Below are positions 6,266 through 7,768 of a stretch of DNA of 64,000 nucleotides, piece after piece. Source of the DNA: Pseudomonas sp. J452. Lineage in GTDB: Bacteria; Pseudomonadota; Gammaproteobacteria; Pseudomonadales; Pseudomonadaceae. The notes below the pieces were generated by a model. The model saw nothing but the letters and a program-made list of their open reading frames with translations. It had not been told where the DNA came from and searched no databases. The DNA is taken from positions 806,001-870,000 of the forward strand of contig NZ_CP088294.1 of NCBI RefSeq assembly GCF_024666525.1, read 5' to 3'. A program made the position numbers and the translations under genes. The first letter of the stretch is position 1; each line of letters begins with the position of its first letter.

Positions 6266-6319
6266 TGTAGCGCGGGTGAACCCCGGAGACTGGCAACGCG
6301 GGTTTCACCCGCCCTACCC
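6266..6319. repeat. Degenerate REP palindrome (GCGGGTGAA type)
   Basis: An imperfect inverted repeat: GCGGGTGAACCCC near 6271 faces CGGGTTTCACCCGCCCTAC near 6299-6317. It is a worn version of the perfect palindrome at 59777-59820, so both belong to one repeat family. It lies between the DUF2339 gene and the insertion sequence. The 6122-6386 interval otherwise shows no coding potential. Confidence 0.7.
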
Positions 6320-6330
6320 GGCGCAATAAG

Positions 6331-6382
6331 GTAGCTCGAATGAAATCCGGGGGCCGGCGACTTTGCTCCCGGATTTCATCCG
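6331..6382. repeat. REP palindrome (GAAATCCGGG type) beside the IS
   Basis: The arms are ATGAAATCCGGG (about 6340-6351) and CCCGGATTTCAT (about 6368-6379), separated by a short loop. The palindrome ends about four bases before the first IS inverted repeat at 6387. IS110-family elements of Pseudomonas (for example ISPpu9/ISPpu10) are known to target REP sequences, so this is probably the insertion target. Confidence 0.8.
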
Positions 6383-6386
6383 TATA

Positions 6387-6656
6387 TGGACTCCTCCCGT
6401 TTTGCCAGTGATCTGCCCTGTTTTCGAACCTAGGTACGACTGCTTCCGTATATCCGGCTTCTGATGAGGTGTTGGCCTCGAGCCATGATGATTTCCGCTC
6501 ATGTGCGCCTGATCGGGCTAACGGCCTTGCGGTGCAGGGGGCCAATGGATGCTGCAGGCTTCACACATGCCGGTGCGACCGGTTCGTCATCAGTTCCTTC
6601 ACTGTGCAATCGAGTGGATCTTCTACGGTGCTGCTCCAGGTACGGCTCTTTGCTGC
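6387..6656 (-). ncRNA. Non-coding end of the IS1111-like element; candidate guide (seek/bridge) RNA region
   Basis: About 270 bases after the transposase stop show no convincing coding frame. In IS1111-group elements this end encodes the RNA that guides target choice. One internal stretch, TCCGTATAT at 6445-6453, exactly repeats the nine bases across the REP/element junction at 6379-6387, as expected if the RNA holds a target-matching loop. The placement is inferred from family knowledge. I cannot fold the RNA or define its ends here. Confidence 0.35.
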
Positions 6657-7656
6657 TCATCCAGGCTGATACGCTTCACCCTTGCTGAGAATCGCCCAGA
6701 TGATCCGGGCATTCTTGTTCGCCAAGACAACCGTGGCGATGTTCTTGTTGCGTCGGCACATCAGCGTGTTCAGCGCAGTCGCTGCGCTGATCCGTTTTCT
6801 CCTGGCAGTGCTTGAGCACTGAGCGGGCGCCATGGATCAGCAAGGTGCGCAGATAGCTGTCGCCGCGTTTGCTGATCGGCCCCAGGCGCTCCTTGCCGCC
6901 ACTGGAGTGTTGGCTGGGCACCAACTGTCGGCTGCTGCGAAACTGGCGCGCATCGCCGACGGCACTGACCACCGCCGTGGCGCTGATCGGGCCAAGGCCC
7001 TCGACTGCCATCAACCGCTTCACCCGCTCATCCTCGCGCGCCTGACACTGGATCAGTTTCTCCAGGCTCGCCAGTCGCTCGTCATGCCCTTGCCACTCCT
7101 CGTTCAAGCCCCTCAGCAGCTCACGCATCGGGCCAGGCAGGCCGTTATCCGGCGTATCGAGCGCTTGGCGCAGCAGCTCGCGGCCAGCGGCGAGGCCTGT
7201 ACGAGGTTCGACCAGGCCAAACTCGGCCAGCAGCCCACGGACTTCATTGACCAAGGCCGTACGGGAGCGAACCACCCGACTCCTGATCCGGTGCACCGAT
7301 TGACCGGCTTGTTGCCCAGCACTTTTGACCTCGACATAGCGCATGTTCGGACGGCTTCCGGCCTCGCAAATCGCCTCGGCAGCATTGGCGTCGTTCTTGC
7401 CGCTCTTTACATAGGGTTTGACGAACTGCGGGGCGATCAGGCGCACCTCACGCCCCAGCATCCGCAACTCGCGCGCCCAGTAATGGGCACTGCCACACGC
7501 CTCCATCACCACCAAGCAAGGTTCCAGCTGGCGGAAGAAATCCAGCATCTGGTGCCGCTTGAGTTGTTTGCGGCATTTCACCTGCTCGTGACTGTCGACC
7601 CCATGGACTTGGAAAACCTGCTTTGCCAGGTCAACACCGATTCGGCTAAGTTTCAT
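6657..7656 (-). pseudogene. IS110/IS1111-type transposase, frameshifted and internally deleted
   Basis: The start at 7656 follows a strong GGAGGAG ribosome site and gives the typical MKLSRIGVDLAKQVFQVHG N-terminus of the DEDD domain. Family motifs continue through LIAPQFVKPYVKSGKNDA, LIHGARSVLKHCQ and QHSSGGKERLG. Two lesions are visible. About six residues (usually AAWLGL-like) are missing between FRSSRQ and LVPSQHSSGG. After DQRSD the frame shifts: the family C-terminus (LNTLMCRRNKNIATVVLANK, then NARIIWAILSKGEAYQPG and a stop at 6657-6659) is read in another frame, consistent with loss of two bases near 6779. Reading without correction ends at 6676 in unrelated sequence. Confidence 0.9.
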
Positions 7657-7740
7657 GGCGACTCCTCCCTTCGTGACTGTTTGTTTTGACAACTTCAGTC
7701 TGGCGCCTAGACGCCGTAGGAGGGGGGAGTCCACAGACAC

Positions 7741-7768
7741 AAAAAAGCCCGCGATGCGGGCTTTTTCT
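7741..7768 (-). terminator. Rho-independent terminator of the DUF1329 gene
   Basis: A hairpin AAGCCCGC-GAT-GCGGGCTT flanked by A and T runs lies 13 bases after the stop of the gene at 7781. On the minus strand it ends in a T-rich tract. It also forms the boundary with the insertion sequence. Confidence 0.85.

Follow-up and report, generated by a model that had tools for sequence, protein, structure and literature searches.

IS1111-type insertion sequences with a seekRNA, among them the REP-targeting ISPa11, have a DEDD transposase and 13-bp subterminal repeats with extensions of 7 bp on the left and 3 bp on the right (Siddiquee et al. 2024, PMC11187229). Their RNA comes from the non-coding region downstream of tnp, with the top-strand match placed before the bottom-strand match and a long form of 145–170 nt. 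ISEc11 moves with a seekRNA of 82 nt, which is said to hold the target matches, and how seekRNA and protein bind the IS1111 ends is stated as unknown in that paper (PMC11187229). The bridge RNA of IS110/IS1111 has a target loop and a donor loop, in each of which a left and a right guide lie around a core; for many IS1111, a multiloop was predicted to contain donor nucleotides (Durrant et al. 2024, PMC11208160). For IS621, of the IS110 group, the name handshake guides was given to guide bases that encounter the non-cognate DNA once the strands have been exchanged (Hiraizumi et al. 2024, PMC11208158). In Pseudomonas putida, the IS110-type elements ISPpu9 and ISPpu10 lie in REPs and have a sense RNA downstream of tnp; the small RNA of these systems, Ssr9, is ~180 nt (PMC1525189, PMC8450116). 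Insertion into REPs by ISPa11, ISPpu9 and ISPpu10 is thus already known (PMC1525189). All these sources are cited to the extent of their accessible text.

A degraded element of this kind occupies positions 6383–7733 of the window, the whole stretch of 64,000 nucleotides that was analysed (Table 1). Its IS1111-type identity, proposed in an earlier note on this DNA, was confirmed by Pfam matches above cut-off in the minus-strand transposase (PF01548 and PF02371) and by the subterminal repeats. The REP as target was supported on one side, where the right end of the element adjoins the REP palindrome; the distance to the inverted repeat, given earlier with fair accuracy as about four bases, is three, the subterminal repeat beginning at 6386. 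ISPpu9 and ISPpu10, unlike this element, were reported without clear terminal inverted repeats (PMC1525189, PMC8450116, accessible text). The non-coding DNA is 273 nt long downstream of tnp and 77 nt upstream. Relatives with a full-length transposase are found on the plasmids pSTY (VLB120) and pTTS12 (S12), with 79.5% DNA identity (protein WP_019436603.1), and more occur in other genomes.

Table 1. Positions in the window of the element, of its neighbouring sequences and of the parts of its RNA.
Feature	Position	Strand	Basis or remark
REP palindrome	6337..6382		arms 6337-6354 and 6365-6382, 18 nt, 89% complementary
REP palindrome whose end is the right target flank of the element, CGGATGAAATCC on the minus strand	6337..6382	-	
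Junction 9-mer ATATA/CGGA	6379..6387	-	element end 6387-6383, target 6382-6379
Right terminal extension, 3 bp, ATA	6383..6385	-	also from the flanks of the VLB120 copy (L039)
Right subterminal inverted repeat	6386..6398	-	
Bridge/seekRNA (predicted)	6436..6613	-	covariance model R1; compensatory changes
Stem P1, 3' strand	6437..6443	-	
Proposed handshake bases GG, target +1 and +2	6446..6447	-	
Core base C of the donor-loop guide	6448..6448	-	same as the first left-end base in 63 of 67
Donor loop, second guide ATATA, as right end	6449..6453	-	66 of 67 elements carry their right extension here
Donor loop, first guide	6487..6494	-	complements the left extension in relatives; TCAT alone kept here
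Target loop, second guide TAGCC (6516-6520) and core C	6515..6520	-	
Target loop, first guide GCATCC	6547..6552	-	complements the right target GGATGC
Stem P1, 5' strand	6606..6612	-	
Broken DEDD transposase gene	6657..7656	-	Pfam PF01548, PF02371; tblastn with the VLB120 protein
Left subterminal repeat, one base short	7722..7733	-	
Terminator-like hairpin now adjoining the broken left end	7742..7766		inverted repeat with a run of T

The VLB120 copy (L039) shows what the window copy has lost. It has identical subterminal repeats (13 of 13) and fits extensions of 7 bp on the left and 3 bp on the right; its flanks, GTAGCC and CGGATGCAATCC, rejoin to the REP sequence GTAGCCCGGATGCAATCC, and its core is C, the first base of the left end and of the right target alike. 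In the window the subterminal repeats agree over 12 bp with one mismatch, and the 3-bp right extension is present. The right half of the REP adjoins the element, and the 7-bp left extension has been lost together with the left REP half; VLB120 and some other relatives lie in REP-like flanks. A tblastn alignment with the VLB120 protein shows a frameshift near 6780 in the transposase, a deletion of six residues and Ala where NDxxDA has its last Asp. With a broken transposase and no left end, this copy is not expected to transpose on its own. Of 38 genomes searched with the right flank, the best four relatives (L106–L109) lacked the left flank within the stretch examined, and no uninterrupted site was found among them. 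Extension lengths of 8 and 5 bp had also been considered, and were discarded after the repeat had been defined as 13 bp long.

The element is the sole full-length match in the 4.86-Mb genome. Its REP type, GTAGCCCGGATGNAATCCG, occurs at 217 genomic places with at most one mismatch, and TAGCCCGGATGC, the 12-mer spelled by the target guides of the window RNA, has 173 exact genomic copies. A further palindrome, belonging to a different REP type (GTAGCGCGGGTGAACCCCG ... CGGGTTTCACCCGCCCTAC), lies at 6267–6317, just before the REP that holds the element. Short right-end remnants, a subterminal repeat with ATATA still joined to REPs, were seen in three other genomes (L024, L037, L038).

Covariance model R1 was built from 21 other elements; the window and the group nearest to it were left out, and none of the 21 transposases exceeds 55% identity to the VLB120 protein. 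The earlier note had proposed an RNA on the minus strand of this non-coding end and a covariance search that might have placed none; the search was run and placed an RNA of 178 nt there, with all 178 model positions matched, at 100 bits and E = 2e-25, and no further match in the window up to E = 10. Rfam 15 at gathering thresholds had no match in the window. Since the RNAalifold consensus of 33 RNAs was weak, the structure was named by hand, as a closing stem, a stem toward the target loop and a donor-loop hairpin, and then tested on the 21 elements. The cells were paired in 86.2% (67.6% in shuffled alignments), both-sided changes were seen in 111 cells (40.9 when shuffled), and the covariation score was 0.464 (0.164 when shuffled), a value reached in none of 500 shuffles. 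The donor-loop hairpin is weak, with 65% and 50% of cells paired, and the number of additional pair types in A2 did not rise above the shuffles, 375 of 500 being as high. The RNA of the VLB120 copy scored 93.9 bits with R1. The term fossil in the earlier note is apt for the element, with its broken transposase and lost left end, but not visibly for the RNA (100 bits against 93.9); judged from its sequence, the RNA gene of the dead element looks whole. The RNA family is widespread: R1 gave 53 matches in 52 of 69 chosen loci, and at E ≤ 1e-5 it hit 72 of the 369 genomes scanned in the class and 68 of the 299 scanned in the phylum, with up to 9 matches per genome.

The observation that had drawn attention to this end, nine bases of the junction between element and REP recurring inside the element, proved exact. 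TCCGTATAT is present at 6379–6387 and at 6445–6453, within the predicted RNA, and at no third site in the window; the mean number expected from 100 shuffles is 0.03, and two copies appeared in none of them. With the flanking bases the match extends over 16 nt at 81% (6372–6387 and 6438–6453). Of 5000 dinucleotide shuffles, 13 repeated a junction-spanning 9-mer inside 6400–6660 when the same strand was considered, and 19 when either strand was. In the first alignment of non-coding ends, ATATACGG stood at the place of the internal copy in all four sequences (the window, L039, L011 and L012, the last two being identical there), so the internal copy is conserved and is not a local accident.

The relation of the RNA to the ends and targets was determined on a larger set. 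Each of 100 chosen sources gave one RNA; 69 had both ends assigned by way of inverted repeats, with search ranges set from the position of the RNA and without use of the guide letters. The counts cover 67 of them, leaving out the 31 without an end pair (the window included) and two with too little flank (L094, L125). For a smaller set, automatic repeat detection gave false pairs at several loci (e.g. L042, L010, L070, L041, L098, L076); 37 elements were kept there once a repeat filter had been applied and eight duplicate rows removed by hand. In the window's own DNA two of the four guides can be compared, its left end being gone.

In 66 of 67 elements the 3-bp right extension recurs in the second donor-loop guide; among the 23 with an extension other than ATA this holds for 22. 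The core base of this guide is the same as the left-end base in 63 of 67 cases, and the same as the target base in only 58 of 67; the latter count speaks against the explanation given below. The other guides were compared by the summed longest match, with relatedness uncorrected throughout: 433 for the first target-loop guide and the complement of the right target (212 when permuted), 359 for the second target-loop guide and the left target with core (201), and 328 for the first donor-loop guide and the complement of the left extension (254). None of the three sums was reached in 2000 permutations. As in IS1111 seekRNA (PMC11187229, accessible text), the complement of the top strand stands 5' of the complement of the bottom strand, and the RNA belongs to the non-coding region downstream of tnp. 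Sequence and covariation together point to two distinct loops, one for the target and one for the donor, in each of which both strands around the core are matched, as in the bridge RNA (PMC11208160, accessible text). The accessible text on seekRNA (PMC11187229), by comparison, gives target matches only; here a donor loop and bases past the core are put forward as well. A further difference is that the window copy is broken.

The RNA, its structure from compensatory change, the guide–DNA matches and the covariation were computed; from these we infer that the guides do pair, in which order they do so, and how this serves strand exchange. In the explanation that we hold to be probably correct, a dead IS1111-type element lies in a REP, and the second guide of the donor loop of its RNA is the 9-mer ATATA-C-GG(A), spanning end, core and target. 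The element would have inserted into the REP at GTAGCC^CGGATG, and its right non-coding end would encode a bridge/seekRNA of ~178 nt that forms two loops, one for the target and one for the donor; the internal 9-mer would be the second guide of the donor loop (5'-ATATA-C-GG(A)-3'). ATATA would pair with the bottom strand of the right end of the element, C would be the one-base core common to element and target, and GG would match the first two target bases past the core. Like the handshake guides of IS621, the guide would stay paired through strand exchange, with the donor end and core before and with the incoming target strand after, which would make it by nature a copy of the junction between right end and target. 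A guide spanning strand exchange must resemble the product junction, so that on this evidence the internal copy is there by function.

Past the core, the guide tends to agree with the target. In the 67 elements the guide matched the target at +1 in 60 (permuted mean 44.4; reached in 0 of 20000 permutations) and, more modestly, at +2 in 29 (21.0, p = 0.018). No excess over permutation was found in these elements at +3 (20 against 18.0, p = 0.33) or at +4 (9 against 17.8, below expectation); the match of the A at 6445 to the +3 base of the target in the window accordingly has no statistical support. When each 70%-identity cluster was represented by one element with a matching core (n = 33), which removes the relatedness of the elements only partly, the counts were 29 at +1 (18.5 expected) and 15 at +2 (9.0, p = 0.013), with no excess at +3 (10 against 8.4, p = 0.32) or +4 (5 against 7.9). 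When the target was slid along, the matches at +1 and +2 fell from 76 to 22–46 of 116.

These numbers also bear on the best-surviving alternative, in which the donor-loop guide is ATATAC only; GGA would then be a fixed part of the RNA, or be paired internally with the first target guide, and its match to the REP would follow from this alone. The lack of a match at +3 or +4 suits it, and so does the composition of the targets, many of which start with C-GG or T-G; the raw matches are inflated by this, as the permuted mean of 44.4 of 67 illustrates. Pairing inside the RNA predicts the same covariation, from which the handshake signal could indeed stem. Among 20 discordant cases, 6 follow the other guide and 3 follow neither, but 11 follow the DNA; moreover, the excess at +1 and +2 over permutation persists when the clusters are reduced to one element each. 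We consider the ATATAC-only guide unlikely, while leaving it an appreciable share. In the target loop, plain identity at +1 was found in only 28 of 64, a result that speaks against the proposal; G stands there in 10 of 10 with a left-end G, and 32 others would be G-T wobbles. Mirror-image handshake guides in IS1111 are supported by covariation for the donor loop; the target loop, with its weaker signal, may or may not have one.

The earlier note had suggested that the internal copy represents the target-recognition loop. It was right in that the copy is part of an RNA guide, and the last bases of the copy do match the REP flank; the guide, however, would be that of the donor loop (right end and core), and the target guides are further 5', in another loop, where they covary with both target flanks. 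ATATA tracks the right extension, also in the 22 of 23 cases mentioned above, and is retained in a group with unchanged ends and new targets (L011, L096, L097, L074). A target-recognition loop at this place is therefore very improbable. Least credible of all is a nine-base coincidence, which the earlier note had kept in mind: some shuffles do yield such a match (13 of 5000, as above) and other features could equally have caught the eye, but the copy is conserved at one position of the RNA and covaries with the ends over 67 elements.

Relatives were expected in the earlier note to share the REP-type junction and a matching loop. Relatives of the same group proved to lie at other junctions as well, and the RNA had changed with the junction in L096, where both read ATATACGCA; in L097, L075 and L073 of this group RNA and junction agree only in part, which counts against the donor-loop guide through the junction. 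So does ISEc11, since an element that moves with an 82-nt seekRNA may not need a donor loop (PMC11187229, accessible text).

Two further loci were noted. The same genome holds a second IS1111-type element (L003/L118) with a transposase 39.5% identical to that of VLB120; its RNA lies at C1:2175584-2175754 on the plus strand (45 bits with R1), and the guide, ATATACGCAT, repeats the element's own junction over 10 bases. The right flank, CGCATTGTTAGGC, resembles an integron attC site. At L010 (G270:C122, ~1501; P. indoloxydans L042) the transposase is 99.7% identical to that of VLB120, and the REP end ...CATCCG directly abuts an internal site of the RNA gene, so that the right end and the donor loop are missing. 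R1 has no match at L010, and another contig of the same genome (L065) carries a full RNA; the arrangement may be a truncation or an assembly effect.

IS621, too, has a second guide in which two bases next to the core agree with the non-cognate DNA, as seen by covariation. That guide pairs with the top strand, whereas the one described here is proposed to pair with the bottom strand, so that left and right are mirrored (PMC11208158, accessible text). A sequence search of the PDB returned IS621 and ISCro4 as the only relatives. The literature searched, with subscription papers and preprints outside its reach, gave no account of handshake guides in IS1111, and the word "handshake" is absent from the accessible text of PMC11187229. 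We lean, by a modest degree, toward the wider view that IS1111-type RNAs carry handshake guides mirrored with respect to IS621, that each RNA stores short copies of both product junctions, that IS110 and IS1111 share a reflected logic of strand exchange, and that the IS1111 donor loop works. If this is true, the second guide of the donor loop would read right end, core and target (+1, +2), and that of the target loop left target, core and left end; the short-seekRNA result would leave such a working donor loop unexplained.

The reading proposed for this RNA is unexpected. The covariation over 67 elements bears on how IS1111 elements recognize their own ends: it indicates that the donor loop is under selection, gives the register of this loop and its core base, and singles out two bases for tests of a role in strand exchange. 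A number of ISfinder entries are reported to have incorrect element boundaries (PMC11187229, accessible text), and the rule that one guide of the RNA repeats the element end and the core could help to fix them.
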